A stretch of DNA of 32,860 bases from positions 1-32,860 of the forward strand of contig JANXWA010000001.1 of the NCBI GenBank assembly GCA_025351385.1, in the 5' to 3' direction. A program made the translations under genes and the position numbers. The notes under the pieces were generated by a model that was not told the DNA's origin, did no database searches, and worked only from the letters and a program-made list of their open reading frames with translations. Origin of the DNA: Acidimicrobiales bacterium. GTDB taxonomy: Bacteria; Actinomycetota; Acidimicrobiia; Acidimicrobiales; RAAP-2. Every line of letters starts with the position of its first letter. Position 1 is the first letter of the stretch. This document shows positions 19,943 through 32,860 of the stretch, in pieces.

Positions 19943-20847
19943 TAGCCGTTCAGTTCGCGCTCGAGCTTGTTCAACTGGTCGAGGCGCTTCTCCAGCGAAG
20001 GGTGCGTCGAGAACAGCGACGCCGCGGTCCCGCTGGCGAGCGCCGGCGCGAAGAAGAAGGCGTTCATGGCCTCGGCGTGACGCAGGTCGGTGCGGGGGAT
20101 CTTGCCCATGTCGCCGGTGATGTGTACCAGCGCACTCGCCAGCACGCTGGGCTTACCGATGAGGATGGCTCCGGAGCGGTCCGCGGAGAGCTCGCGAGCG
20201 CGAGAGAGGGACATGGTGAGCAGGTAGGCAATGATGTAGATCACGATCGAGATCACCCAGGTGGCGAGTTCGAGTAGCGCGGTCTGGTCACCGCCCTGGT
20301 TGCGGTCGCCACCGGAGAACATCGCCCCCCACATGGCCATGCGCCCCACCAGGCCGGCGAGCATGCCCACGCCCGAGGCGATGGTCATGACGGCGACGTC
20401 GCGGTGGGCGACGTGGCTGAGCTCGTGGGCGAGCACCGCCTCGAGCTCCTCGTCGCTCAATCGGCTCATGATGCCGCGCGTCGCGCAGATGACCGCGTGG
20501 CTGGGGCTGCGCCCGGTGGCGAAGGCGTTGGGGACGTCGATCTCGGCGACGCCCACTCGGGGCTTCTTCATGTCGGCGAGCAGGCAGAGCCGGTCGACGA
20601 TCTCGTGGAGCTTGGGCTCCTCCTGGGGCGTCACCTCGTGGGCCCGCATCGAGAACATCGCGATCTTGTCCGAGAAGTAGTACTGGGAGAACAACAACGC
20701 TCCGGCGATCACGATGACCAAGACCGTCGACACGCCGAGGCGCACCATGACCGTCACGATGATCGCGTAGAGAAGGACGAGCGCGAGGCCCGTCATGAAC
20801 ATTCGCGCGTCGAGGCCCCGGTCGGTCTCGATCTTCGTCTTGGCCAT
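19942..20847 (-). CDS. htpX: HtpX-like M48 membrane metalloprotease
   Basis: HtpX is a zinc protease of the cytoplasmic membrane that degrades misfolded membrane proteins under envelope stress. The 301-residue protein has two N-terminal membrane spans (about 17-37 and 39-57). The zinc motif HELSH is at H141-E142-H145, the third ligand is E219 in RARELSADR, and two further hydrophobic segments lie near 153-175 and 192-214. The C-terminal LFSTHPSLEKRLDQL is typical. The start codon shares one base with the pspA stop (TAATG), which indicates strong coupling with pspA. Confidence 0.95.
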   Translation of the reverse strand: MAKTKIETDRGLDARMFMTGLALVLLYAIIVTVMVRLGVSTVLVIVIAGALLFSQYYFSDKIAMFSMRAHEVTPQEEPKLHEIVDRLCLLADMKKPRVGVAEIDVPNAFATGRSPSHAVICATRGIMSRLSDEELEAVLAHELSHVAHRDVAVMTIASGVGMLAGLVGRMAMWGAMFSGGDRNQGGDQTALLELATWVISIVIYIIAYLLTMSLSRARELSADRSGAILIGKPSVLASALVHITGDMGKIPRTDLRHAEAMNAFFFAPALASGTAASLFSTHPSLEKRLDQLNKLERELNG

Positions 20848-21581
20848 TATTGGGCTTCGCCCGACGGCAACTCGGTGGTCGAGCCGCTCGCCATCTGCGT
20901 CTTCAGCGCCGCCAGCTGGGCGTCGATGTCCGAGGTGCCCGACGACTTGTCGAGCTGGGCCTGGATATCGTCGTTCGTGCTCGTGAGGTCCGTGAGGGCC
21001 CCCGAGGCGAGCAGCTCGTCGAGCGCGCCACTGCGCGCCTGCATCTCGGCGACCTTGTCCTGGGCCCGCTGCATCGCCGCTCCGGCGTCACCCATCGAGG
21101 TCGAGATGCCGCTGACGGCCTCACTGATGTGCGCCGACGCTTCGGCCGCGGTGTAGGTGGCCTTGATGGTCTCCTTCTTCGTGCGGAAGGCCTCGACCTC
21201 GACCTGGAGGCGCTGGGCGGTGTCGGTCAGCTTCTGCTCCTGCTCGGCGATCGTGGCGTGCTGGACCTCGAGGTCCTTCAGCTGGGTCGAGATCGCCTCG
21301 CGACGGGTCAGCGCCTCGCGGGCGAGCGGCTCGTTGCCCTGGGTGAGGGCGGCCTTGGCCTGCTCGGCCAACTTGTCGCCCTGGCTCTTCAGTTGCTCTG
21401 CCTGGATCTCCACGCGCTTGCGCGCGGTCGCGACGTCGGCGACGGCCCGCTTCACCTTCGTGAGATTGTCCAGCTGTTGCTCGTAGGAGAGGTCCAGCGT
21501 CTGGCGCGGGTCCTCCGCCTTGTTGAGGGCCGCGTTGGTCTTGGCCTGGAAGATCGTGCTGATGCGCTTCATGACACCCAT
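20847..21581 (-). CDS. pspA: Phage shock protein A (PspA/IM30 family)
   Basis: PspA is an ESCRT-III-like membrane-remodelling coiled-coil protein that protects a stressed inner membrane. The 244-residue product starts with the amphipathic MKRISTIFQAKTNAALNKAEDP segment and runs through the family motif LDLSYEQQL. Four long helices without membrane spans follow, ending in a Ser/Thr/Gly-rich tail. AGGAGG lies six bases before the ATG, a strong ribosome-binding site. The partners HtpX and PspAB follow immediately, but no PspAA, PspB, PspC or PspF homologue is present. purE lies upstream on the same strand, 87 bases away. A pspA promoter is expected in that gap, but I cannot identify it. Confidence 0.95.
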   Translation of the reverse strand: MGVMKRISTIFQAKTNAALNKAEDPRQTLDLSYEQQLDNLTKVKRAVADVATARKRVEIQAEQLKSQGDKLAEQAKAALTQGNEPLAREALTRREAISTQLKDLEVQHATIAEQEQKLTDTAQRLQVEVEAFRTKKETIKATYTAAEASAHISEAVSGISTSMGDAGAAMQRAQDKVAEMQARSGALDELLASGALTDLTSTNDDIQAQLDKSSGTSDIDAQLAALKTQMASGSTTELPSGEAQ

Positions 21582-21668
21582 CGGGGGCCTCCTTCGTTAC
21601 CTGAACAGACTAGGGGGCGGTGTCGACCACCTGAATCCGAAAACCGGCCAATCGACGTAAGAATTCCA

Positions 21669-22157
21669 TCAACCCCGTGGTAGCTCGCGGTCCTGCAAGG
21701 CGGATTGGGTCGCGAGGTCGTCCCGGTACTCCTCGAGGGCGCTCGCGATCCGCTCGTCGTGCGTCGCGAGGATGCGCGCGGCGAGCAGTCCGGCGTTGGT
21801 GGCGCCGTTGATCGCGACGGTCGCCACGGGCACGCCCCGGGGCATCTGGACCATCGACAAGAGGCTGTCCATCCCGTCGAGGCGCGCCAGTGAGATGGGC
21901 ACGCCAATGACCGGCAGCGTCGTGGCGGCCGCGAGCACCCCCGCCAAGTGGGCCGCGCCGCCGGCGCCGGCGATGATGACCTTCAGTCCCCGCTCCCTCG
22001 CGGTCTTGGCGTACTCGAGCGTCGCGAACGGTGAGCGATGGGCCGAGAGGACGCGGATCTCACTAGCGACGGCGAAACGCTCGAGGATCACCGCCGCCTC
22101 GCGCATGACCTCGTGGTCTGAAGAGCTCCCCATCAGGATGCCGACGATTGGCTGCAT
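21669..22157 (-). CDS. purE: N5-carboxyaminoimidazole ribonucleotide mutase PurE
   Basis: PurE moves the carboxyl group of N5-CAIR to give CAIR in purine synthesis. The 162-residue protein shows [14 protein letters not shown], the catalytic SAHRSP loop, [23 protein letters not shown] and the [19 protein letters not shown] block. The ATG at 22157 is chosen over a GTG 18 bases upstream because GGGAGGA lies between them, four bases before the ATG. Its usual partner purK is not seen. The gene is divergent from the LLM oxidoreductase across a 184-base gap that must hold both promoters. Confidence 0.95.
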
Positions 22158-22341
22158 TATTCCTCCCAAGATCACGAGCGTGGCGCACGCACCCCCATGC
22201 TTTCACGTGGGCGACGTTACCAAGCCCCACGCCCTCTCCAACCGGTGCGGGCGGCCGATCGATCCGGGCCACTCGCGATCGCCCGGTAGGTTGGGGAGGT
22301 CGGACCGGTCGCCGTTGACCTTTCTCGACCAAGGGGGCACC

Positions 22342-23250
22342 ATGGACATCGCTATCGGGCTCGGCGTGGACGGACCACTCGACGCGACGATCGAATCGGC
22401 GACCCAGCTGCGCGAGCGCGGCTTCACCCGGATGTGGTCGTCACAGATCTTCGGCCCCGACACCTTGACGGTGTTCGCGGTCCTCGGCCGCGAGCTTCGC
22501 GACGTGGACTTCGGCACTGCCGTCATCCCGATCCAGCCGCGCCACCCGTCGATGCTGGCGGCCCAGGCCCGCACGGTCCAAGAGGCCATCGGCGGAAGAC
22601 TCTCGCTCGGAATCGGCCTCTCCCACAAACCCCTGGTCGAGCAGGTGTGGGGGATCTCGTTCGACCGACCGGCCAACTACATGGAGGAGTATCTCGCGGC
22701 GTTGGCGCCGATGTTGCGCGGCGAGAGCGTGGCCGCGAAGGGCGAACGGGTGAGCATGGTCGCGACGGGGACGTGGGGACCGAAGCAAGTTCGCAGCCCC
22801 GACCTCCTCGTGGCGGCGTTGGGGCCCAAGATGCTCGAGATGGCGGGCACCCAGACCGACGGCACGTTGCTGTGGATGACGGGGGTCAAGACCATCGCGT
22901 CGCACGTCACGCCGACGATCAACGCCGCCGCTCTCGCGGCCGGTAAGCCGACTCCGCGCATCGTGTGCTCGCTGCCGATCTCGGTGACCAGCGACATCGA
23001 GGGCACCCGAGCGAAGGTCAACGAGACGCTCGCGATCTACGGCACACTGCCGAGCTACCGCGCGATGCTCGACCGCGAGGGGGCCGACGGCCCGGCCGAC
23101 GTCGGCCTGTTCGGCTCGCGCCAGCAGGTGCTGGACCAGCTCCACGAGCTGGCCCAGGCCGGGGTCACCGAGTTCTCGGCGTCGATGACCGCGAGTGCGA
23201 GCGACCGTGACGCCACCTACGACGCGTTGATCGAGTTCGCCTCGCTGTAG
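22342..23250 (+). CDS. LLM class F420-dependent oxidoreductase
   Basis: This 302-residue luciferase-like TIM-barrel protein is of the type that uses F420 in actinobacteria. Recognisable are the N-terminal MDIAIGLGVDGPLDA, the strand and loop GTAVIPIQPRHPSMLAAQA, the hallmark GRLSLGIGLSHKPLVE, and ATGTWGPKQVR near the middle. The later PDLLVAALGPKMLEMAGTQTDGTLLWM segment resembles the part that contacts the F420 phosphate. The ATG at 22342 has AAGGGGG upstream; an open frame extending far 5' is the shadow of purE. The substrate is unknown. Together with the PPOX protein it suggests an F420-using organism. Confidence 0.88.
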   Translation: MDIAIGLGVDGPLDATIESATQLRERGFTRMWSSQIFGPDTLTVFAVLGRELRDVDFGTAVIPIQPRHPSMLAAQARTVQEAIGGRLSLGIGLSHKPLVEQVWGISFDRPANYMEEYLAALAPMLRGESVAAKGERVSMVATGTWGPKQVRSPDLLVAALGPKMLEMAGTQTDGTLLWMTGVKTIASHVTPTINAAALAAGKPTPRIVCSLPISVTSDIEGTRAKVNETLAIYGTLPSYRAMLDREGADGPADVGLFGSRQQVLDQLHELAQAGVTEFSASMTASASDRDATYDALIEFASL

Positions 23251-23277
23251 GTCCTTTGACGCCGGGGTCGTCCGCGC

Positions 23278-23874
23278 CTAGTAGGGGACGCGGGTCCGCT
23301 TGAACTCGTTCAGCTCCGGATCGAGCGCCATGGTCGAGATGAGCGACTCGAGCGCCCTGATCGAGTCCTTGGCGTCATCGCTCGGTTCGGTCATGTAACG
23401 AACGAACGTCGCGTCGCCGTTCACGACGAAAGTGGGCACGCCGAACGCCTCGTAGCGTTCGAACTCTCGGAAGCTCGCTCCGATGACGTCGAAGGGACGC
23501 CGGGTCGCGAGGTCCTCGTCGACCGCGTCCATGTCCACCCCGATCGGGTCGAGCACCGCGGTCACCTCTTCGATGGTGGAGAGGCGAACTCCACCGCCGT
23601 GACGGGCCCGGAAGAGGGCCTCGTGGGCGTCGAGAAAGAGTTCTGGCTGGCGGTCGCGCACGGACACACTGACGGCCAACGCCAGGTGCTCGGCGTCGCG
23701 CGCAGGGTCGTCCCAGACGTCGGGCGCGGTCTCCTCCCGGTAGCCCTGACTCATCGTCCAGGGCACGAAGGTCACGGTGAAGTCGGCGCCGGCGCGAAGG
23801 GCGGTGATGACGTGGAGATGGATGTTCTTCGCGAAGGGGCAGCGGTAGTCGTAGGAGAGGTCGAAGGAAGTCAC
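23278..23874 (-). CDS. DsbA/FrnE-like thioredoxin-fold protein
   Basis: This 198-residue protein has a DsbA-type fold: a strand leading to YDYRCPFAK at residues 9-17, a helical insert, then the cis-proline loop FGVPTFVV. The second active-site cysteine is missing (C-P-F-A), so it is a monothiol variant. This is common in FrnE/2-hydroxychromene isomerase-like members, which act as cytoplasmic glutathione- or mycothiol-linked isomerases or reductases. There is no signal peptide, so a cytoplasmic role is likely. Start is GTG at 23874. It is convergent with the LLM gene with a 27-base gap. Confidence 0.82.
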   Translation of the reverse strand: MTSFDLSYDYRCPFAKNIHLHVITALRAGADFTVTFVPWTMSQGYREETAPDVWDDPARDAEHLALAVSVSVRDRQPELFLDAHEALFRARHGGGVRLSTIEEVTAVLDPIGVDMDAVDEDLATRRPFDVIGASFREFERYEAFGVPTFVVNGDATFVRYMTEPSDDAKDSIRALESLISTMALDPELNEFKRTRVPY

Positions 23875-23890
23875 CCGACCAGCCTAGGGA

Positions 23891-24682
23891 TTAGCGCGAG
23901 GGTACTGGCACACCGCTCGACTTGCACTCGGTCTTGAACGAGCAGAATCGACAGGTGTTGACCGAGGGTGTCGCGGGGAACTCGCCGTCGTCGTAGTAAC
24001 TATTGATGCGGCCCCACGCGTTGGCCGCGGCCTGCGAGCGGGCCCGCACCACGACGTCGGTGACGGAGCGCTCGATGGTCTCGCCCTGGGCGACGTAGAG
24101 CAGGCGGATCTTCGTGGGCTGCTCGCCGAGCTTGGCGGCGCAGAGCGCGGCGTACAGTTCGGCGTTGGCGAATGTCTGGGAGTCGTAGTTGCGGTTCGGC
24201 AGCCCCCCGGTCTTGTAGTCGACGATCGTGAGGCTCCCGTCGGCGTTGCGGTCGAGCCGGTCGAGGATGCCGAACAGCGGCGTCCCCTCGATCGTGACCC
24301 CGAGGCGCAACTCCACGCCCTCGCTGGCGACCAGGATCGGGTCCTCCATCACGAAGTACTTGGCGATGATCCCCTCGGTCTCGATGACCAGTTTGGCCAG
24401 CATCGCGTCGTCCATTCCGATGTCGACGCGCACGTCCTCGGTCAGGATCGCCTCGATCGCCGGCTCGATGTACTCGCGGGCCTGCTCGATGGTACGCGCG
24501 CCGGCCTCGAGCAAGAAGAGCTGCTCGAAGATGTAGTGAACGAAGCGCCCCTTCGCCGTGGCGTAGGAGGCCGGCTGGGGGATCCGTTCTACCGACGCGT
24601 ACTGGTAGCGGCGAGGGCAGGCCTGGAAGTCGGCCAGCCTCGACGGTGAGAGCGACTTGGGCAGCGGTTGGTCGAATGACAT
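23891..24682 (-). CDS. RecB-family PD-(D/E)XK nuclease with Fe-S cysteines
   Basis: This is a stand-alone 263-residue nuclease domain of the RecB/AddB/Cas4 superfamily. Motifs in order: LSPSRLADFQACPRRYQY with C22, the His of GRFVHYIFEQL (H49), D141 in GILDRLDRN, the catalytic IVDYKTG (D155, K157), the AELYAAL helix, and C244-x2-C247-x5-C253. The four cysteines fit the iron-sulfur staple of AddB-type nucleases. There is no helicase domain, and no cas genes or CRISPR repeats are near, so Cas4 is unlikely. The ATG at 24682 gives the conserved N-terminus; the frame continues upstream without family residues. It ends 16 bases upstream of the DsbA-like start and may be co-transcribed with it. Confidence 0.87.
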   Translation of the reverse strand: MSFDQPLPKSLSPSRLADFQACPRRYQYASVERIPQPASYATAKGRFVHYIFEQLFLLEAGARTIEQAREYIEPAIEAILTEDVRVDIGMDDAMLAKLVIETEGIIAKYFVMEDPILVASEGVELRLGVTIEGTPLFGILDRLDRNADGSLTIVDYKTGGLPNRNYDSQTFANAELYAALCAAKLGEQPTKIRLLYVAQGETIERSVTDVVVRARSQAAANAWGRINSYYDDGEFPATPSVNTCRFCSFKTECKSSGVPVPSR

Positions 24683-24747
24683 GGCCCCACCGTACGGCAC
24701 GCCTGTCACGTACCGGCCCAGGCGGCACCGGCGAGTAGAAATGGAGG

Positions 24748-25050
24748 GTGAAGCAACGTCCACTGGTGAGCCGACACGGGAACATGGTGCGCTCGACCCG
24801 GTGGAACGGTGTGAAGTCGGGCGACGTCGTCGTCGTCGACGGCGTCAAGGGTCGCCAGCACTGGGTGTTCGTCGCGCACGTTGTCAACGAGGCCACCGAC
24901 GAGGAGTGGGTCGAGGTGCGTGGGGGACGGGTCGGCGAGGCCAAGGGACGGTCATTCCGGCCCGAGTCGATCTACCCCAGTGGCGCCCGGAAGGGGTCGC
25001 GCCTCGTGGGACTTTCGCTCGCCCAGGCACCACAACTCCCCATCCCCTGA
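24748..25050 (+). CDS. Small uncharacterised actinobacterial protein
   Basis: This protein of about 100 residues is basic at the N-terminus and predicted beta-rich. It has a clear conserved-looking core: RSTRWNGVKSGDVVVVDGVKG, HWVFVAHVVN, EEWVEVRGGR and SFRPESIYP. The pattern looks like a small beta-barrel, but I cannot name the family with certainty. There is no signal peptide, membrane span or cysteine. The start is uncertain: a GTG at 24748 sits directly on GGAGG, so the GTG at 24766 or ATG at 24784 are alternatives. It is divergent from the RecB-like nuclease (65-base gap), which hints at but does not prove shared regulation. Confidence 0.6.
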   Translation: MKQRPLVSRHGNMVRSTRWNGVKSGDVVVVDGVKGRQHWVFVAHVVNEATDEEWVEVRGGRVGEAKGRSFRPESIYPSGARKGSRLVGLSLAQAPQLPIP

Positions 25051-25241
25051 GACCGTGGCGCCTGAATCGACGACGCCGCGAAGTGGTCCGACAAGAGAAG
25101 TTGCGGCGTTGCGCGACCGGCGGCCGTCGGCCCCGACAGCGCCCTCCAGGATGTGTCTTTCGGCCCTATCGAAGGTCCCAAGGGGGACTCATACTGAAGT
25201 TGGGGTCGTGGTGAAGGCCCCAGTAACAAGGAGGTGTCGTC

Positions 25242-25661
25242 ATGGCACTGAAGGTATTTGAACCACTGGAATTGGATTTTGCGGATCGATGGCGCCGCTG
25301 GTTGGACCTCGATAGTGAGGCTGACCGCTGGTTGCGCATCGAAGAGATGCACGAGGACGGCATGATGGTCGTGCGCGCGGAGTTGCCGGGAATCGACCCC
25401 GAACGGGACGTCGAGATCACGGTGAGCGAGGGCGTGCTGCACATCTCGGCCAAGCGCGAGGAGCGCACGGAGCACAAGGACAAGGGGAGTTACCGTTCTG
25501 AGTTCCGCTACGGGATGTTCTCACGGGACTTCGTCCTGCCGACCGGCGTGGACTTCCACACGGTGAAGGCGACGTACAAGGATGGCATCCTCGAAGTACG
25601 GATGCCGCGCGCGAGCGAATTGGCAACCACGATGACCAAGGTGCCAATCAGCCGTTCATGA
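25242..25661 (+). CDS. Hsp20/alpha-crystallin small heat-shock protein
   Basis: This is an ATP-independent holdase that binds unfolding proteins in large oligomers. The 139-residue protein has the alpha-crystallin domain at about 38-130: VVRAELPGIDPERDVEITV, GVLHISAKREER, the F-R/K-R-x-F region EFRYGMFSRDFVLP, and ATYKDGILEVRMP. The start ATG has a strong AAGGAGG seven bases upstream. The upstream 191 bases hold no gene. A CATACT at 25190-25195 could be a -10 box. I see no HspR (HAIR) or HrcA (CIRCE) operator there. Confidence 0.93.
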   Translation: MALKVFEPLELDFADRWRRWLDLDSEADRWLRIEEMHEDGMMVVRAELPGIDPERDVEITVSEGVLHISAKREERTEHKDKGSYRSEFRYGMFSRDFVLPTGVDFHTVKATYKDGILEVRMPRASELATTMTKVPISRS

Positions 25662-25827
25662 AGCAACGCTTGACCTGACCCGAAAGGAGTCAGCGCAGTA
25701 AAGAATCGTCGGACTCTCGGCCAGTGCACCGACCAGAAATGGCCAAGCCCTCCCAAGCCAAGGTGCCAGAAACCAAGGTCCGATCGAACGCCACGTGGCA
25801 GGTGATTCCACCACGGACGTGAATGCA

Positions 25828-25865
25828 GTTTCGCCGGTTGCCCTCTAACGGGCGGCCGGCGAAAC
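25828..25865. terminator. Strong symmetric hairpin between convergent genes (putative bidirectional terminator)
   Basis: GTTTCGCCGG (25828-25837) is perfectly complementary to CCGGCGAAAC (25856-25865). Inside, GCCC pairs with GGGC, and two T/G wobble pairs join them into a 16-bp stem with the loop TCTAAC. It lies between the ends of hsp20 (+) and the EF-G-like gene (-). No T-run follows on either strand, as is often the case in high-GC actinobacteria. The rest of the 247-base gap shows nothing else I can support. Confidence 0.6.
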
Positions 25866-25908
25866 TCGTTGTGGGAGAGCCACGGCGCCGATTGCGACGA
25901 TCGACCGT

Positions 25909-27921
25909 CTAGGCGACCACGGCCAGGTGGTGCTGGACAATGGTGACCCGAGCTCGTCCAGCGGTGATGGCACGAAGGTCCAATCCGTAACGGTTGAGGC
26001 CGGCCTCGGGCACGTAGGCGACCAACATCACGCTCGACGCCTCGCTCTGGTCAGTCCGCACGACGCGGCCCCGCCGGGGCTTGAGATCGTTCAGCACTTC
26101 GCCGAGGTACTCCGTGGGGAAGGTCGCCGTGACCTCCATGACTCGCTCGAGGACGTTGGTGCCGGCCGATTCGAGGGCCGCCTTCAGTCCGATCGATCCG
26201 GCGGTGTCGAAGGCCGCCTCGGAGGAGTCCACGCTGTGGAACTTGCCGTCGAGCAAGGTCACGCGAAGGCCGACCACGCGGTGGCCCTTCGGTCCTCCAT
26301 GGATCATCGCCTTCTCGACGCCGTTGCGCACGGCGCCGATGAACTGGCGCGGCACCGCGCCACCGACGATGGCGTCGACGAACTCGAAGGGAGTGTCGGG
26401 CTCGATCGGCTCGACCTTCAGATTGACCACCGCGAACTGACCGTGGCCTCCGGTCTGCTTCTTTAGTCGGCCCTCGCACTCGCGGGGCGCGACGATCGTC
26501 TCGAAGAGTTGGACGTCCGGCGTCGCGGTGGCCACTTCGACGTTGAAGCGTCGGCGCAGTCGCTCCAGCGTCACTTGCAAGTGCGTGTCGCCCATCACGT
26601 CGACGACGAGCTTGCGCGAGACCGGGTCGTGGCGGATCCGTAGTGACGGATCCTCTTCGGAGAGCCGATGCAGGGCGGTGGCGATCTTATCGTCGTCGTC
26701 GTGCGACGAGCTGGCGAGGGCTACCGACATCGCGGGCGTCGCCACCGGCGCTGGCACGGGCGAGATGTTGAGGCCCTTCTTCGCCAGGATGTCACCGGCG
26801 ACCACGTCACTTAACTTCGCGACGGCGACGACGTCGCCGGTGACTGCCCGGTCCACGGGAACGAGCTTGGTGCCGAAGAGGTGATGGAGCCCGTGGAGGC
26901 GCTCTTCGGACCTGGTTCTCGTGTTCGTAAGAATGATGTCGTTCGTGATCGTGCCCGAGATGACCTCCATGACCACGATGCGTCCAACGTAGGGGTCGAC
27001 GATGACCTTGAAGGCTCGCATGATGGGATCGCCGTGGGGGTCGCGTTCGAGCAGTATCTCGTTGCCGCCCACGAAGGCCGGGATGGGACGGCTGATGGCG
27101 ATCTCGTCGAGCAGCGTCGCGAGCCGGTCGACTCCGAGTCCCTGCGTGGCCGATCCGCAGGTGACCGGCACGATCCGCCCCTCGATCATCAACTCGCTGA
27201 GGGCCGGCTCGAGCTCCTGCATCGTCGGGATGTCGCCCTCCAGGTACCGCTCGGTGAGCGTGTCGTCGGCGACGACGATCGCTTCGAGGAGGCTCGAACG
27301 CACTCGGGCCTCGAGTTCGGCGAGCTCGGCTGGCACCGGCCCGCGGCGCGGTCCGCGTGCGTCGTAGGTGATCGCCTCGTCGGCGAGCAGGTCGACGACT
27401 CCTTGGAAGTCGGCTCCCTCACCGATCGGCAATTCGAGCGGCGCGAGCGTCGGTCCGACCAGCAGCTCGAGTCCTCGCAGCGTCGACTCGAAGTCCGCCC
27501 GTTCGGCGTCGAGGGCGTTGACGAAGATCACCACCGGGACTCGAGCCTCCTGGGCGAGGTTCCACGTCGAGACGAAGTCGGCCTGGACGCCGTCCACCGC
27601 GCTGACGACGAGCACCGCGACGTCGGCGACATCGAGCGCTCGCTCGACCTCGCCGGAAAAGTCGATCAGTCCCGGCGTGTCGAGCAGCGTCAACTTGTCC
27701 TCGCCGACCCACACCGGGGCCATTGCGATGCCGAGGGACATCTGGTGTCGTCGCTCCTCGGGGTCGTTGCCGCACAGCGACGTGCCGGCGTCGACGCGTC
27801 CGGGCCGTTCCAGTCCACCGGTGGCGACGACGAGAGCTTCCAGAAGTGACGTCTTGCCGACGCCGTTTCGTCCGATCAGAGCGACGGTTCTCGCTCTGGG
27901 GTGGCTGGGGGCGATGACCAT
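25909..27921 (-). CDS. Elongation factor G-like translational GTPase (EF-G2/FusA2 type)
   Basis: This 670-residue protein has the five-domain EF-G layout. The P-loop GRNGVGKTS spans about 17-25, then LLDTPGLIDFSGEV, domain II (MRAFKVIVDPYVGRIVVMEVISG), domain IV (QTGGHGQFAVVNLKVEPI...GGAVPRQFI) and the C-terminal FPTEYLGEVLNDLKPRRGRV. The usual EF-G P-loop AHIDAGKTT is replaced, and the base-specifying NKxD box reads NALD. Both mark the divergent EF-G2/FusA2 branch rather than the main FusA. Function in that branch is unsettled. The ATG at 27921 has GAGG five bases upstream; a GTG two codons earlier overlaps that site. The upstream 138 bases hold no gene. Confidence 0.88.
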   Translation of the reverse strand: MVIAPSHPRARTVALIGRNGVGKTSLLEALVVATGGLERPGRVDAGTSLCGNDPEERRHQMSLGIAMAPVWVGEDKLTLLDTPGLIDFSGEVERALDVADVAVLVVSAVDGVQADFVSTWNLAQEARVPVVIFVNALDAERADFESTLRGLELLVGPTLAPLELPIGEGADFQGVVDLLADEAITYDARGPRRGPVPAELAELEARVRSSLLEAIVVADDTLTERYLEGDIPTMQELEPALSELMIEGRIVPVTCGSATQGLGVDRLATLLDEIAISRPIPAFVGGNEILLERDPHGDPIMRAFKVIVDPYVGRIVVMEVISGTITNDIILTNTRTRSEERLHGLHHLFGTKLVPVDRAVTGDVVAVAKLSDVVAGDILAKKGLNISPVPAPVATPAMSVALASSSHDDDDKIATALHRLSEEDPSLRIRHDPVSRKLVVDVMGDTHLQVTLERLRRRFNVEVATATPDVQLFETIVAPRECEGRLKKQTGGHGQFAVVNLKVEPIEPDTPFEFVDAIVGGAVPRQFIGAVRNGVEKAMIHGGPKGHRVVGLRVTLLDGKFHSVDSSEAAFDTAGSIGLKAALESAGTNVLERVMEVTATFPTEYLGEVLNDLKPRRGRVVRTDQSEASSVMLVAYVPEAGLNRYGLDLRAITAGRARVTIVQHHLAVVA

Positions 27922-28059
27922 TGGCACCTCGATTCGTATGTGTGTTGGCCCTAACGTAGTCCTCTGCGCGCACCGCGCGTATCGGAGTCCTCCAGTCGAT
28001 CAGCGGGACGCTTCGCGAGTCCCCGTTCCGACCCGTGCCTGCGCACAAGGGGCTGGGGA

Positions 28060-28749
28060 CTACCCGACGACAGTCTCTCGGGCGGCCAGTCGGTCGATCC
28101 GCTCCCGTTCGACATCGGTGGTGTGGACGTCGAGCTTGCGCGCTTCGCTGACGCGGGCCATCCACTTGCGGGCGCCGTCCACGTCGCTCGCCCTCAGGTA
28201 GGCCCGGATCAGTTGACGGCGACCGACCGCGCCGGTCAGCCGGCCGATCGGCGAGCCGGGGATTGTCGAGGTCGCCATGATGATCCAGGACTGGGCCACG
28301 TCAGCGCCGCACGGTCCGGCCGAGACGCTCGCGAAGTCGATCACCATCGGGCCGCCACTGGTCAGCATCACGTTGTCGGGGTGGAAGTCAAGGTGCAGGA
28401 CACCCTCTCGCTCGCCGAATCGGGTCGGCATCGAGGCGTGAGGGGCAATGAGGTTCAACCGGCGCTGCAGCGCTGCGAGCAGGCTCGCTAACTCCTTGAT
28501 CCTCCACGGTTGACGGCCGAGGGTGTGCAGCATCGTCGAACCGTCAAGGCGGGCCATGACGATGTCGGGACCCGAGACGTCATAGACCTCCGGCACCGGA
28601 TAGCCCCGATCCAACAGGTACCGCATGGCGTCGGCTTCGGACGCGGCGTCGTGACCGTCGTGGTAGCGGCGAAGTACGCGGTCGGGGGCGCAGAGGAAGA
28701 CGTCGGCCGATCGACCCCGACCGATGAGCTCTCCTGGACCGGATGACAT
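28060..28749 (-). CDS. APH-type small-molecule phosphotransferase (kinase-like)
   Basis: This 229-residue protein of the aminoglycoside/choline kinase superfamily shows GELIGRGRSADVF (nucleotide loop), the Brenner motif HLDFHPDN with catalytic D121 and metal-binding N126, and VIDFASVSAGP with D138 as the DFG aspartate. The usual ATP-binding Lys of the VLK strand is Arg (VLRRY). It is shorter than typical resistance kinases, and neighbours give no resistance context, so a metabolic substrate is as likely. The ATG at 28749 gives the conserved N-terminus; the longer frame upstream is a shadow of the dapA-like gene. It is divergent from that gene across 114 bases. Confidence 0.8.
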   Translation of the reverse strand: MSSGPGELIGRGRSADVFLCAPDRVLRRYHDGHDAASEADAMRYLLDRGYPVPEVYDVSGPDIVMARLDGSTMLHTLGRQPWRIKELASLLAALQRRLNLIAPHASMPTRFGEREGVLHLDFHPDNVMLTSGGPMVIDFASVSAGPCGADVAQSWIIMATSTIPGSPIGRLTGAVGRRQLIRAYLRASDVDGARKWMARVSEARKLDVHTTDVERERIDRLAARETVVG

Positions 28750-28863
28750 GGGCGCAAGATACCAATCAATCGGCCTTCGGTCCTCCCGAGCCTTGGAATG
28801 GGCGTAACTTCGACGGGAACGGTAGAGCGTCGTTCGACGCTCGTACGTCTGGAAGGGTTCCGA

Positions 28864-29781
28864 GTGGCGAGTGGTCGTGAGTTGTCCGGTGTGCTGCCGG
28901 TCATTCAAACGCCGTTCGACGTCGGTGGTCGAATCGACGAGACGGCGCTCACCGCCGAGCTCGAGTGGGTTCTCGACCAGGGGGTGAGTGGGCTCACGAC
29001 AGGAATGGTCTCTGAGGTGTTGGTTCTGGACGATCGAGAGCGCCGTCGGCTCACCGAGGTGGTCGTCGGCGTGGCCCGAGGTCGCGGTGCGCTCTCGGTC
29101 ATCAGCTGTGGCGCTGAGACCATCGAGAGTGCCGTGGCGCACGTGCGTCACGCGCAACAGTGCGGCGCCGACGCCGTCATGGCGATCGCGCCCGTCACGG
29201 AAGACCTCGACGACGAGGCGACGTTCCGCTACTTCGCGCAGATCGTCGAGTCGACGGCGCTCGGCGTGGTGGTCCAGGATGCGAGTGGCTACGTGGGGCG
29301 ATCCCTGAGCATCGAGACGCTGGCGCGCCTCCACGACGCGTACGGGCGGCGCGTGTACTTCAAGCCCGAGGCGCCGCCGATCGGCCAGCGCCTCACGATG
29401 CTGCGCGACGCGACGCTCGGCGAGGCCCGGGCCTTCGAGGGCACCGGGGGAGCGGCCCTGACCGACAGCTTCCGACGGGGCGTCGTTGGCACGATGCCCG
29501 GGGCCGAAGTCTGTTGGGCGATCCAAGGTATGTGGTCAGCACTTCAGGCCGGTGATTGGTCGCTCGCCTACGACATCAACGGTCCGTTGAGCCTGCTCAT
29601 CAACTTGCAGACGACGATCGACTCTTTCGTGGCGATCGAGAAGCACATCTTGGTTCGTCAGGGCGTGATCGGGTCGGCTCGAGCCCGTCCCACGTCGGAC
29701 TACGCGCTCGATGACGAAACTCGCGACGAGGTGGATCGACTGGTCGATCGGCTGCGGGCGATCGTCGTTTCTGGGAAGTGA
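28864..29781 (+). CDS. DapA/N-acetylneuraminate lyase superfamily protein, non-canonical
   Basis: This 305-residue TIM-barrel protein is of the class I aldolase group that includes dihydrodipicolinate synthase. Seen are LPVIQTPFDVGGRIDETAL, the GLTTG segment (residues 43-47) corresponding to GTTGE, and the Schiff-base lysine K167 in RVYFKPEAPP. The catalytic tyrosine of DapA (motif PYY) is replaced by P-V-T at 110-112, so a true lysine-pathway DapA is doubtful. The reaction is unknown. The GTG at 28864 is chosen because GGAAGGG lies six bases upstream and conserved sequence starts there. The ATG at 28798 has no ribosome-binding site. Confidence 0.8.
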   Translation: MASGRELSGVLPVIQTPFDVGGRIDETALTAELEWVLDQGVSGLTTGMVSEVLVLDDRERRRLTEVVVGVARGRGALSVISCGAETIESAVAHVRHAQQCGADAVMAIAPVTEDLDDEATFRYFAQIVESTALGVVVQDASGYVGRSLSIETLARLHDAYGRRVYFKPEAPPIGQRLTMLRDATLGEARAFEGTGGAALTDSFRRGVVGTMPGAEVCWAIQGMWSALQAGDWSLAYDINGPLSLLINLQTTIDSFVAIEKHILVRQGVIGSARARPTSDYALDDETRDEVDRLVDRLRAIVVSGK

Positions 29782-29784
29782 TCC

Positions 29785-29801
29785 CTTCCTCGTCGAGGAG
29801 G
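29785..29801 (+). terminator. Putative hairpin terminator after the DapA-like gene
   Basis: CTTCCTC and GAGGAGG form a 7-bp stem with one wobble pair and a GTC loop. It starts four bases after the stop codon and is followed by TCTTGT. The stem is short and the T-tract weak, so confidence is limited. Confidence 0.35.
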
Positions 29802-29911
29802 TCTTGTCGCGACGGCTTGGGTGAAACTGGCGCATCGAAGAGCTGGGCCGTGGTCATCAGAGCCTCGCCGACACTCGATGACGCGTCATGACGGGAGCGC
29901 CGTCCGACGAT

Positions 29912-29917
29912 TAGTGT
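29912..29917 (+). promoter_or_regulatory. -10-like box TAGTGT before the Thr-rich surface protein
   Basis: TAGTGT lies in the 154-base gap after the DapA-like gene. A start near 29924 would leave a leader of about 12 bases that begins within AGGGAA (29921-29926), the likely ribosome-binding site. No -35 consensus is present. Confidence 0.22.
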
Positions 29918-29935
29918 CCGAGGGAAACGTTAGGA

Positions 29936-32143
29936 ATGATGAGGCCAACGTCCCGGTACGACTCTCGCAGGCGTCACGTGGCGGCCATCTGCGCCGCCTT
30001 TGGCGCTCTCGCGCTGCTCGGCGCGACGGCGGCGGTTGCCGAGGCAGGCCAGGTGCACCAGAACGGCGTGCCGACGACCACCACGACGTCATCCGCGGGC
30101 GTGCCAACCACGACCACGACGACGTCATCCACGGGCGTACCGACCACCACCACGACGTCGTCCACGGGCGTACCGACCACGACCACCACTCGACCCAAGG
30201 TCACCACGACGACGGTCAAGGTGAGGGCCGCGACCACCACCACATCGAAGGCGACGACGACCATCGCGACGTCGACGACGACCACGGCGAAAGTGACGAC
30301 GACCACTCGAAGCAACGCCACGACTTCGAGCGCCCCGCCGTCCAGCACCACCACGACGTCGATTGCGCACGGTCCCGCGTCGAATGGTCGGCTCTCGATC
30401 GACATCGTCGCGCGCGCCGGCGCCGCGCTTCTTGACGGAAGGATCCTGGTCACGGGGGCCGGTCTGCTCCCCGGTTCGACGGTGTCCATCTATGTCCACT
30501 CGGCTCCGGCGCTGATCGGCAGTGCGCCGGTGAGCGGCCGCGGACGCTTCGCGGTCAGCCTCACGATGCCGGCCCGTCTGGCGCCTGGGGCCCACCACAT
30601 CGTGGTGAACGGCCTCTCTGTCCAGTCTCGACACGTCGCCGCGAGTGAGGCGTTCACTGTCGCCTCTGGCGGCGTGTTCGGAACGATCGGAGCGATTCCG
30701 CCGGGCCCGCTGGCCCGCTACGTCGCCTTCGACCCGCGTTCGGACCCGGGTTCGTTGCTCGTCATCTTCGCCGGCCTCGCCGTGGTGATCGCCGCCGTCG
30801 GAGCGGTGATTCGCCGGGATCGTGGCGTGAGTGGACCGAGAGGCTCTCGAAGTGGCCAGTCCGGGCGGAGCGCTCGGGAGGGCTACCTCGAGGACGTCGA
30901 ACTCGAACGTGAGGAACGTGAGGTGAGCGGCGGCTCGCGTGGCGACCGTTCACGAACGTGGCGCTGGCCGGGCACCCGTCGCGTCGACCAAGGGAGTCGA
31001 ACCTATCCGGCCCGCCTCGCCGCGGTCTCGCCGGTCGCGGGCCGGGTGGCGGTCGACGGCGACTACCTGCGAGCCATGTTCGGCAGCGGCTGGCTGCTCC
31101 TGTGCGCTGCCGCGATCGGTCTCGGCCTCGACGCGTCGGCGCGAACTGACTGGTTCGCCGTGCCTCCGACGTTGTGGCTCTTCCTCGCGGTCCTCGCGTT
31201 GAGCGTGCTCGACTCGACCCTCGGGTACCTGGCGGGGATTGCGTTCCTGCTCGGCGCCGTCGTCGCCGGCCACGTCACCACCGCGTCGCAGGTCCGCGAG
31301 GCCGCCGGCATTGCCCTGGTCTGGTTCGCGGTTCCCCTCGCCGCGGCCGCGCTTCGTCCTCTGCGGCGGAACGTCCATCGATCGATCGTCGGTCTCTGGG
31401 ACCGGACCGCTGATCTGGTCCTGGCCGGTCTCTTCGGGGCGTGGGCGGCGGTGAAGATGTCGAGCGCCCTCTCGGGTCTGGCGGGGTACGACCTTCCGAT
31501 CGGGCACCACGTCGACGCCGTCGCGCTCACGGTCTTTGGTTTCCTCGCCCTTCGAATCGCTATCGAAACGGTCGCCGCGCACCACTACCCTCGTCGACTC
31601 GCCGCCGTCCATCACGTGGGCGCGCTCGAGTCCGGCACCCTCCAGACAGGACTCTCGCTCATCATCCAGATCTCTGTGTTCGTCTTCGTCGCAGTGGCGT
31701 TCGTGGGCACGACCTGGGCGCTGTACCTGGGCGCCGGCCTGTTCTTCGCACCGCTCATCCCCTGGCTCTTTGCCGACCGGATCCCGAAGAGCCGTCTAGT
31801 GACGAAGTGGAGCCCGCGCGGGCTCGTCAAGTGGTCGCTTGTCATCGTCGTCGGCCTCGTACTGGCCCAGCTCCTCGAACACCTGGTCGCCAACGCCGCG
31901 CAGCTCGTGCGCATCGGCTTCATTCTCCTGCCGATTCCGATCCTCGTCTGCTGGTCCCTCGAGCTCTTCGAAGAACCGCCCTTCGACGATGGTGCGCAGA
32001 GCGCAGCCAACCAACAGCACCCCGCGACGTCCGAGGCATCACTTCGTGAAGCGTCGGGCCGGCGCGAATGGCTCCTGCGCCTTGGAGGGGTTCCCCTACT
32101 GGCATTGGCGGTGTGGGTCGTTGTCACCCACGGCGCCCGGTAG
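29936..32143 (+). CDS. Signal peptide + Thr-rich repeat + Ig-like region + polytopic membrane protein
   Basis: I do not recognise this 735-residue protein as a named family. A signal peptide or anchor lies at about 1-38 (basic start, then AAFGALALLGATAAVAEAG). Residues 44-143 are low-complexity Thr/Ser with four GVPTTTTT-SS units. Residues 150-243 look like a bacterial surface Ig-like domain (VTGAGLLPGSTVSIYV...RFAVSLTMPARLAPGAHHIVVNG). A membrane span follows at about 272-292, a charged linker to about 380, then roughly ten further hydrophobic spans to the C-terminus. The Thr stretch is probably an extracellular, possibly O-mannosylated stalk. AGGGAA lies nine bases before the ATG; a second ATG follows immediately. 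The stop codon touches the tandem repeat derived from tRNA-Gly. Confidence 0.85.
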   Translation: MMRPTSRYDSRRRHVAAICAAFGALALLGATAAVAEAGQVHQNGVPTTTTTSSAGVPTTTTTTSSTGVPTTTTTSSTGVPTTTTTRPKVTTTTVKVRAATTTTSKATTTIATSTTTTAKVTTTTRSNATTSSAPPSSTTTTSIAHGPASNGRLSIDIVARAGAALLDGRILVTGAGLLPGSTVSIYVHSAPALIGSAPVSGRGRFAVSLTMPARLAPGAHHIVVNGLSVQSRHVAASEAFTVASGGVFGTIGAIPPGPLARYVAFDPRSDPGSLLVIFAGLAVVIAAVGAVIRRDRGVSGPRGSRSGQSGRSAREGYLEDVELEREEREVSGGSRGDRSRTWRWPGTRRVDQGSRTYPARLAAVSPVAGRVAVDGDYLRAMFGSGWLLLCAAAIGLGLDASARTDWFAVPPTLWLFLAVLALSVLDSTLGYLAGIAFLLGAVVAGHVTTASQVREAAGIALVWFAVPLAAAALRPLRRNVHRSIVGLWDRTADLVLAGLFGAWAAVKMSSALSGLAGYDLPIGHHVDAVALTVFGFLALRIAIETVAAHHYPRRLAAVHHVGALESGTLQTGLSLIIQISVFVFVAVAFVGTTWALYLGAGLFFAPLIPWLFADRIPKSRLVTKWSPRGLVKWSLVIVVGLVLAQLLEHLVANAAQLVRIGFILLPIPILVCWSLELFEEPPFDDGAQSAANQQHPATSEASLREASGRREWLLRLGGVPLLALAVWVVVTHGAR
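30065..30196 (+). repeat. In-frame tandem repeat coding for GVPTTTTT-SS units
   Basis: Units start at 30065, 30098, 30134 and 30167. Their lengths are 33, 36, 33 and about 30 bases, each opening GGCGT(G/A)CC and continuing with ACC/ACG codons. One unit has gained a single Thr codon. Such arrays expand and contract by slippage and could vary between strains. Confidence 0.8.
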
Positions 32144-32172
32144 TGGAGCGGGTGACGGTGGAGCGGGTGACG
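32143..32172. repeat. Perfect 15-bp tandem duplication of a tRNA 3' end
   Basis: GTGGAGCGGGTGACG occurs twice in direct tandem (32143-32157 and 32158-32172). On the minus strand each copy holds the acceptor strand CACCCGC, the discriminator T and an encoded CCA. The first base is the last base of the surface-protein stop codon. Confidence 0.9.
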
Positions 32173-32206
32173 GGAATCGAACCCGCATGACCAGCTTGGA
32201 AGGGTG
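32159..32206 (-). tRNA. tRNA-Gly(UCC) 3' half only (attachment-site-like remnant)
   Basis: On the minus strand the sequence reads an anticodon loop CTTCCAA (anticodon TCC, 32198-32200) and the 3' anticodon stem GCTGG. A variable region and the T-arm with GGGTTCGATTCCC follow, then CACCCGC-T-CCA ending at 32159. The expected 5' half (GCGGGTG acceptor strand and D-arm) is absent: homology stops just past the anticodon loop, with only CCACC left where the 5' stem should be. This is what remains at the distal end when an element integrates into the 3' part of a tRNA gene. An intron in the anticodon loop is a less likely alternative. Confidence 0.75.
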
Positions 32207-32388
32207 GGCAACCGGATCCGTCCGAAGGAGTTTTACTACAGATCAGGACACATTTCTAACTGAATGTTCGGTACAAACAAATGTCTTGGGCACCCCACGG
32301 GCACTCTGGACGTAAGCTGTCGCGCCGATCAGTGCCACACTGGCGATTGTCGAGATTTGCAGAGCGGGGACTGGAAGGAACGGCGTTG

Positions 32389-32697
32389 ATGACGAAATTC
32401 AATCGTGCAATTCTGAGTGTTGGTCTGGTACTCACGGTGGGAGGTTCGGTTGAATTTGCGCCTGGAATTGCGTCGGCGTCTTCGCCAACCTCAACCACTA
32501 TTCCAACAGCGACTTCTCTCACATCGAATTCGCCAGCCGTCCCAGCGCCATCGCTCGCACCAACGCAAGAGACGCTCGCCACTTCGACCCCTACTTCTTC
32601 TGGGGAATCTCACTCGACCGTTACTTTTCGGCGAATCTTCGTCCAAACTTGCATATTGCTGTGCACCCTTCTCCCGTTTCGCTGGTTGATTCCCTAG
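32389..32697 (+). pseudogene. Short secreted Thr/Ser/Pro-rich protein, probably frameshifted or truncated
   Basis: An ATG with GGAAGGAA eight bases upstream opens a 102-residue frame. A clear signal peptide (RAILSVGLVLTVGG...IASA, cut near residue 30) is followed by a Thr/Ser/Pro linker to about 72. The last 30 residues, with two Cys and a hydrophobic run, do not look like a domain end. In the -1 frame the DNA is open from 32454 to 32810 without a start codon. It reads like a beta-rich surface domain there (for example NLRPNLHIAVHPSPVSLVD). I infer a frameshift between linker and body, or a gene remnant. The DNA is visibly less GC-rich than the rest of the window, supporting acquired origin. 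Confidence 0.45.
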
Positions 32698-32728
32698 GGA
32701 ACCAACTTGTCAGCCGAGGCTGTTGGGT

Positions 32729-32786
32729 GTGGCTGATTTCGATGCGCGTTTCAGAGGCGACGTGTGGCTACTTTCGATGCGCGTTT
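32729..32786. repeat. Imperfect direct repeat pair, IS21-end-like
   Basis: GTGGCT-2N-TTTCGATGCGCGTTT occurs at 32729-32751 and 32764-32786, 35 bases apart, differing only at two adjacent positions. Multiple short GTGGC(T/C)-type direct repeats are a feature of IS21-family ends, from general knowledge. No IstA or IstB coding sequence is visible on either side. Confidence 0.6.
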
Positions 32787-32796
32787 ACAGCCGCAC

Positions 32797-32860
32797 TTCT
32801 TGCGCATGGATAATGGACCAGAGTTCGTCGCGCACGCTCTCAATGACTGGTGTCGCTTCA
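32797..32860 (+). mobile_element. IS3-type transposase (OrfB) fragment, runs off the window
   Basis: The frame starting at 32797 reads FLRMDNGPEFVAHALNDWCR, the second catalytic Asp region (DNGPEF) of the rve integrase core of IS3-family OrfB. The preceding part of the protein is missing: upstream in this frame a TGA occurs at 32734, and the bases between are the direct repeats. The element is therefore truncated at its 5' side, at least within this window. The 3' continuation lies outside. Confidence 0.65.

Follow-up and report, generated by a model that had tools for sequence, protein, structure and literature searches.

What does half of a transfer RNA (tRNA) gene mark when it stands close to the end of a contig? 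The question is raised by a stretch of 32,860 nucleotides (JANXWA010000001.1, hereafter the window), which is the whole of contig C21 in the assembly GCA_025351385.1 of an Acidimicrobiales bacterium (genome G000; 2.18 Mb, 36 contigs, 97% complete), and which carries near its right end the 3′ half of a tRNA-Gly(UCC) gene. An original prediction, made from the letters of the window, took this half for the left boundary of an integrated element whose intact tRNA gene would lie on the minus strand at the far right end, beyond the window. The analysis described here makes it very probable that 32159-32206 is one attachment (att) half of a small, decayed element integrated at tRNA-Gly(UCC), resembling a cis-mobilizable element (CIME) and left over from a family that encodes a tyrosine integrase and the replication initiator RepSA. 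This reading is carried by the two tRNA halves, the synteny around them, a repeat spacing and a hipBA block shared with relatives, and the lack of an integrase in the available sequence; the mechanics of the crossover, the roles of the repeats and of hipBA, and a direct run of C21 into C24 are inferred.

The sole other strong match to the remnant in this genome is an intact tRNA-Gly(UCC) gene on contig C24 (C24:28314-28385), to which 32159-32206 is 96% identical over 47 bases (E 1e-15). In the orientation of the window, this gene stands on the minus strand with its 5′ side facing away from the element, just as the original prediction had placed it, and the second copy of the 3′ half on which that prediction depended exists. 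The intact target gene and the 3′ fragment of matching orientation are thus found on two contigs of one genome. The intact gene has no encoded CCA at its 3′ end and the displaced half has one, which fits a 3′ half supplied to the intact gene by the element. Joining the 5′ half from C24 to the 3′ half from the window at the anticodon-loop heptamer CTTCCAA (read as TTGGAAG in the window) rebuilds the uninterrupted gene, i.e., a perfect 74-base tRNA-Gly(UCC) with CCA, and the reciprocal junction of the other two halves gives no tRNA. Neither ARAGORN nor Rfam at its gathering score called a tRNA in the window, as is expected because only half a gene is present; at a relaxed threshold, Rfam gave just a weak match to the T arm of transfer-messenger RNA (tmRNA) over the remnant. 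No second tRNA remnant was found in 20001-32860 of the window at E 1e-4.

The flanks in relatives tie the two contigs together. The globin gene of the C24 side lies 5′ of tRNA-Gly in 30/30 same-genus loci fetched with this tRNA (one of them cut inside the tRNA), and the PD-(D/E)XK gene of the window lies on the 3′ side of the tRNA in 8 of these 30, with no such match in the remaining fetched stretches or contigs. In a named collection containing 54 loci with an intact tRNA, the globin side was found in 50/54 and the PD-(D/E)XK side in 15/54. Thus, C24 and C21 are two sides of one locus. Across the 15 loci, the distance from the tRNA to the PD-(D/E)XK gene ranges from 393 to 6311 bp, and the shortest interval belongs to L190 (CAIYAP010000007.1), a distant relative (62% identical in the glycosyltransferase used as bait) in which the 88-amino-acid neighbour gene, when the sequence is read by eye, seems to be present too. 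L190 provides a near-empty site, the relative lacking the element with which the original prediction had proposed a comparison.

This comparison also bears on the left flank. The remnant was originally placed exactly where housekeeping-type sequence ends; its clean 3′ half stands, but the 7 kb to its left looks accessory. Conserved synteny picks up again at about 25.05 kb, and since the interval between the tRNA and the PD-(D/E)XK gene is near-empty in L190, the DNA at 25.05-32.14 kb looks like extra (accessory) DNA as well; the description of the left flank as plain housekeeping DNA was dropped after the synteny comparison and L190. The 735-amino-acid open reading frame (ORF) next to the remnant has no Pfam family and is matched in 12/41 genomes including its own, with 46% identity in the best relative. 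The EF-G-like GTPase gene of this flank (670 amino acids, 25909-27921, minus strand) is also present in G003 (88%) and, inverted, in G041 (67%).

On the other side of the remnant, the interior of the element (32207-32860) has a GC content of 54.3% vs. 67.7% for the whole window, and the lowest of 645 sliding windows (654 bp, step 50, some overlapping this interior) has 54.4%. With this low GC content, a truncated ORF and pieces of insertion sequences, the AT-richer DNA, transposase pieces and broken secreted gene originally described do begin at this point. The truncated secreted-type ORF (32390-32612) has no Pfam family, and the insertion-sequence fragment that cuts it off resembles a stretch of the same genome (C2:117891-118067) that adjoins IS21 istA and istB genes. 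The 32-amino-acid fragment at the contig end is presumably a DNGPEF-type transposase core.

The far end on C24 shows what this copy shares with relatives. Downstream of the intact tRNA, the hexamer TGCCCA recurs at +90, +100, +120 and +131, and at +89, +99, +119 and +130 in the relative G021 and +89, +99, +120 and +130 in L137 and L164. At least three copies occur in 9 of 53 stretches downstream of tRNA-Gly (G000, G051 and those named loci whose tRNA is intact and whose sequence reaches far enough) vs. 7 of 8152 background windows, which were taken from 70 of the same loci on both strands with elements included. The repeats would be arm sites of the integrase.

Next after the repeats come hipA and hipB, as a block 79% identical to that of G021 over 1766 bp. 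The HipA proteins of this genome pair are 84% identical, whereas nine flanking genes reach 52-69% where they align (w21772 and c13338 align in part, and w24000, 45% identical and overlapping the PD-(D/E)XK gene, is left out), and the block has therefore probably travelled sideways. In G021, an integrase follows hipB; here, the homology ends before the integrase and IS21 and IS3 debris starts. HipA contains PF13657 and PF07804 and has a helix-turn-helix HipB encoded upstream, as in hipBA type II toxin-antitoxin systems, and activity of this kind is predicted; however, HipA falls below the cut-off of YjjJ, the sole named HipA equivalog matched, and PADLOC returned just weak, partial matches for HipA and the helix-turn-helix protein. 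A 22-base perfect palindrome (CAACTCCGATC/GATCGGAGTTG) upstream of hipB, at L005:17185-17206 (C24), is possibly an operator.

The machinery that this copy lacks is found in its sister elements. Intact tRNA-Gly genes have a tyrosine integrase of one family (72-93% identical) nearby in seven cases (G004, G010, G021, G051, L137, L142, L147), as detected with a profile from 15 integrases of the genus, far second matches in L142 and L154 being left uncounted. The RepSA initiator (PF20199, E down to 4e-113) adjoins the integrase in L137, L142, L147 (truncated), G004 and G051, with a fragment in G010. L147 is a whole small element within 3.2 kb, comprising the intact tRNA, the integrase, the truncated RepSA, a HepT-like gene and the displaced half. 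Genes within the elements were taken as longest ORFs, as gene prediction by codon usage misses foreign genes there. An FtsK/SpoIIIE-type Tra gave no match on the tRNA-Gly contigs of four sister genomes (G004:C188, G010:C50, G021:C75, G051:C133); the genomes of L137 and L142 contain one Tra match each and that of L147 five, which may or may not belong to the contigs of these loci. The sister elements carry two of the three modules of actinomycete integrative and conjugative elements (AICEs). The tyrosine integrase expected near the intact tRNA is accordingly found in relatives, but not in this genome's own element. Near the sister elements stand toxin-antitoxin genes, HepT-like in L147 and HepT/MntA-like in L142 (below the equivalog cut-offs), so that the addiction modules at this site would differ between elements; in PADLOC, a PDC-S09 model matched the MntA-like antitoxin of L142.

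The tRNA-Gly(UCC) gene is a recurrent target in the genus. Displaced 3′ halves, defined as matches that run from tRNA position 25-31 to position 72 and counted within the genus, are present in 11/37 genomes including this one (G000, G004, G009, G012, G014, G015, G020, G021, G043, G046, G052), the match in G014:C82 (positions 1-38) being left out because there the contig is cut inside the tRNA. Their breakpoints cluster at the anticodon loop, the tRNA homology starting at CTTCCAA or at most six bases before it; the anticodon loop is a known crossover subsite of integrases at tRNA genes in the accessible text of the Islander study (PMC4383910). Partial tRNA matches also occur outside the genus, in G027, G029, G037 and G038. 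The named collection of 80 records (nearly all metagenome-assembled genomes under labels such as Acidimicrobiaceae or Actinomycetes; the isolate names of 28 refer to palsa, bog or fen) has an intact tRNA-Gly in 54 loci, 7 with an integrase-profile match nearby (a fragment in L154), 6 with a remnant on the same contig, and one with both; one of the 6 has an intact integrase. Since named loci and genomes overlap (e.g., L174 is G021:C75), the two sets do not give independent counts. All 6 have intervening DNA, of 611-5657 bases, between the intact tRNA and the remnant, and so a truncated tRNA without an element, which would have told against the original prediction, was not seen. One contig, L078 (G015:C97), holds a remnant and, at two separate places, C-terminal pieces of integrases of the tRNA-Gly family, which suggests decayed tandem elements.

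A tyrosine integrase, from the element or a relative, would have recombined an attP site carrying a copy of the tRNA-Gly(UCC) 3′ half with the chromosomal gene, the crossover falling in the anticodon loop at CTTCCAA. The incoming 3′ half would have completed the tRNA that is now C24:28314-28385, and the original 3′ half with its CCA would have been displaced to the other end, beside the 735-amino-acid ORF. The element would then have decayed, with loss of the integrase and entry of insertion sequences, leaving hipBA between the two att halves, where this toxin-antitoxin module may favour retention of the element.

How far does this copy resemble known systems? Like the tRNA-gene (tDNA) islands collected by Islander, it has an intact tRNA at one end and a displaced 3′ fragment of the same orientation at the other, with the anticodon loop a listed subsite; however, Islander, as far as its accessible text describes, demands an integrase gene in the island (PMC4383910), which is found in the sister elements and not in this copy. 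CIMEs are described in the available part of PMC5704250 as keeping attL and attR, having lost the genes for integration and transfer, and arising by decay of an integrated element. Here, both att halves are present and no integrase, RepSA or FtsK-type gene was found, in an element that the assembly does not close; in contrast to CIMEs, which that text describes as tandem members with integrative and conjugative or integrative and mobilizable elements (PMC5704250), no tandem partner was seen. A CIME-like nature fits, and such an element may be excised or mobilized by an integrase that another element supplies. The sister elements resemble pSAM2-like AICEs in having a tyrosine integrase beside the att site together with RepSA (PMC3218068, in its accessible part), but differ in that no Tra was found on the tRNA-Gly contigs of G004, G010, G021 and G051. 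In this copy, none of the three AICE modules was found, i.e., no integrase (as searched for the tyrosine type), no RepSA and no FtsK/SpoIIIE-type Tra on C21 or C24, the Tra matches of this genome lying on C26 and, below the cut-off, on C12. The accessible text of the AICE survey treats regions with at most two modules as likely remnants or other islands (PMC3218068).

Several points weigh against the preferred reading of a small decayed element. No tyrosine-integrase (PF00589) or RepSA fragment was found in C21 or C24:13000-32114, serine recombinases not being searched in this genome, and activity therefore cannot be claimed. Beyond the tRNA, the DNA of the left end is not similar to its counterpart in G021. 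TGCCCA is an imperfect marker, as G051, which has the integrase, contains two copies and L141 contains three with no integrase seen. Among the 54 named loci with an intact tRNA, 42 have neither an integrase-family match nearby nor a remnant in reach. No full intact tRNA-Gly(UCC) was found in G015, G020, G043 and G046, and G014 has just its first 38 bases; we infer contig breaks in all five. The link between the contigs is a 99-base exact overlap inside C24, whereas 6 of the 7 exact contig-end joins detected in this assembly overlap by 141 bases, and it may reflect a minor variant or a repeat. Finally, C24 does not end at the overlap but goes on to an IS3 fragment and to an alcohol dehydrogenase gene that the end of the contig truncates. 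If C21 runs directly into C24, the element would be about 2.5 kb; otherwise the element may be larger, at 4.4 kb and more, or the population may be mixed.

Is a mobile element needed at all? The remnant could be a pseudogene or duplication scar into whose neighbourhood insertion-sequence debris came independently, a view to which the missing integrase lends some weight and which the 15-base tandem duplication at the tRNA end, showing that small duplications occur here, also favours. However, the displaced halves of ten other genomes of the genus share the breakpoint, the reciprocal halves rebuild a perfect tRNA, in relatives the two contigs correspond to the two sides of one tRNA, and the arm-like repeats and hipBA block are common to integrase-bearing elements; synteny and repeat spacing largely refute the scar, which is very improbable. 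Integration at tRNA genes by tyrosine integrases is also typical of prophages (PMC4383910, accessible text), and the element could be a prophage remnant instead of an AICE-like, plasmid-type one, but this is very unlikely, as RepSA adjoins the integrase in five loci and no phage structural family appeared in the part of the sister-element ORFs scanned with Pfam (PHROGs were not searched).

A larger and maybe complete element is more likely than these two, though still rather improbable. It would take in C24 beyond 30420, with the IS3 fragment and the alcohol dehydrogenase gene, plus unassembled DNA, and its integrase would lie in the gap between C24 and C21. C24 does extend to 32114 downstream of the tRNA, repeats stand at the break, and the genome is 97% complete in 36 contigs; however, the four tyrosine integrases of this genome lie on C3, C26 and C32, RepSA gave 0 matches in G000 (RepAM and Prim-Pol were not searched), and the hipBA stretch matches no other contig at E 0.001. 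On C3, a partial integrase frame of 193 amino acids (G000:C3:100264-100864) overlaps a short match to an IS21-type end sequence, and an insertion sequence may have cut it.

The coordinates are collected in Table 1. The 15-base repeat of the tRNA end may have been left by an earlier event at a different tRNA subsite, or by simple slippage; in the relative G008, a near copy of these 15 bases follows the intact tRNA-Gly.

Table 1. Features of the window around the half tRNA gene and their place in the locus
Feature	Position	Strand	Remarks
Conserved chromosomal side: PD-(D/E)XK gene (minus strand, 23891-24700) and 88-amino-acid gene (plus strand)	23891-25050		
Accessory DNA: 109-amino-acid ORF, EF-G-like GTPase, APH-like kinase, DHDPS-like gene	25051-29935		Missing from the tRNA to PD-(D/E)XK interval of L190
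735-amino-acid ORF with Thr/Ser-rich part	29936-32143	+	Immediate outer flank; its last base directly precedes the tRNA-like sequence
Second, tandem copy of the last 15 tRNA bases	32144-32158	-	Adjoins the copy at 32159-32173; absent from the original prediction
Displaced 3′ half of tRNA-Gly(UCC), anticodon loop to encoded CCA	32159-32206	-	Att core, on the side opposite the intact tRNA
Anticodon-loop heptamer CTTCCAA	32196-32202	-	Putative crossover segment
Element interior, left end	32207-32860		GC 54.3%; runs off the contig
5′ part of secreted-type gene, Ser/Thr-rich tail (by eye)	32390-32612	+	Cut off by insertion-sequence DNA
IS21-family insertion sequence, end fragment	32613-32789		177 bases; 81% identical to C2:117891-118067
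Overlap with C24:30420-30240	32680-32860		179/181 identical, no mismatch in the final 99; likely link to the contig with hipBA and the intact tRNA; absent from the original prediction
Transposase-core-like fragment, 32 amino acids	32764-32859	+	Runs off the contig; no Pfam match

RepSA was found in 33/99 genomes of the genus (32 over the cut-off), and eight RepSA regions were fetched as other sites, one of which (L250) proved to be the tRNA-Gly locus of L137 again. RepSA adjoins an FtsK/SpoIIIE-domain gene in 6/6 regions in which a candidate ORF was scanned (L244, L245, L246, L247, L249, L251). A recombinase is near, namely a tyrosine integrase in L244 (Pfam) and L245 (profile), a serine recombinase in L247 and L249 (Pfam), and in L246 and L251 a serine recombinase recognized by a look-alike start only. 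Five of the six sets lie beside a tRNA or tmRNA gene (tRNA-Val, tRNA-Ala, tRNA-Gln/Glu or tmRNA). By their domains, the six are AICE-type core sets in a group for which the accessible text of a 2011 survey of 275 genomes reports none (there named Acidimicrobidae), a survey in which widening the Rep families added one element only, in Bifidobacterium (PMC3218068). No later report of AICEs in Acidimicrobiia was found in a limited literature search, the acronym being shared with an unrelated imaging term, and no published description of an integrase and RepSA element family at tRNA-Gly(UCC) was found in the literature searched; the mechanism itself is ordinary and the host group under-described.

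It is possible, though only tentatively proposed, that tRNA-Gly(UCC) in this Acidimicrobiaceae-related genus is a turnover site at which the integrase of the RepSA-type family also moves, in trans, small cassettes of about 0.6-5.7 kb that encode hipBA or secreted-type proteins, lack an integrase and have retained both att sites and partly also the arm-like repeats. If true, such turnover, together with the Tra, RepSA and integrase sets elsewhere in the genus, would extend AICE-type elements to the Acidimicrobiia. What was concluded from the letters of a halved tRNA gene near the end of a contig is borne out by the far end, the relatives and a near-empty site. An integration hotspot of an uncultured actinobacterial lineage is thereby mapped, at which related bacteria carry a variety of mobile elements, and the tRNA-Gly(UCC) att site with its integrase family would be a natural basis for integration tools in Acidimicrobiales.

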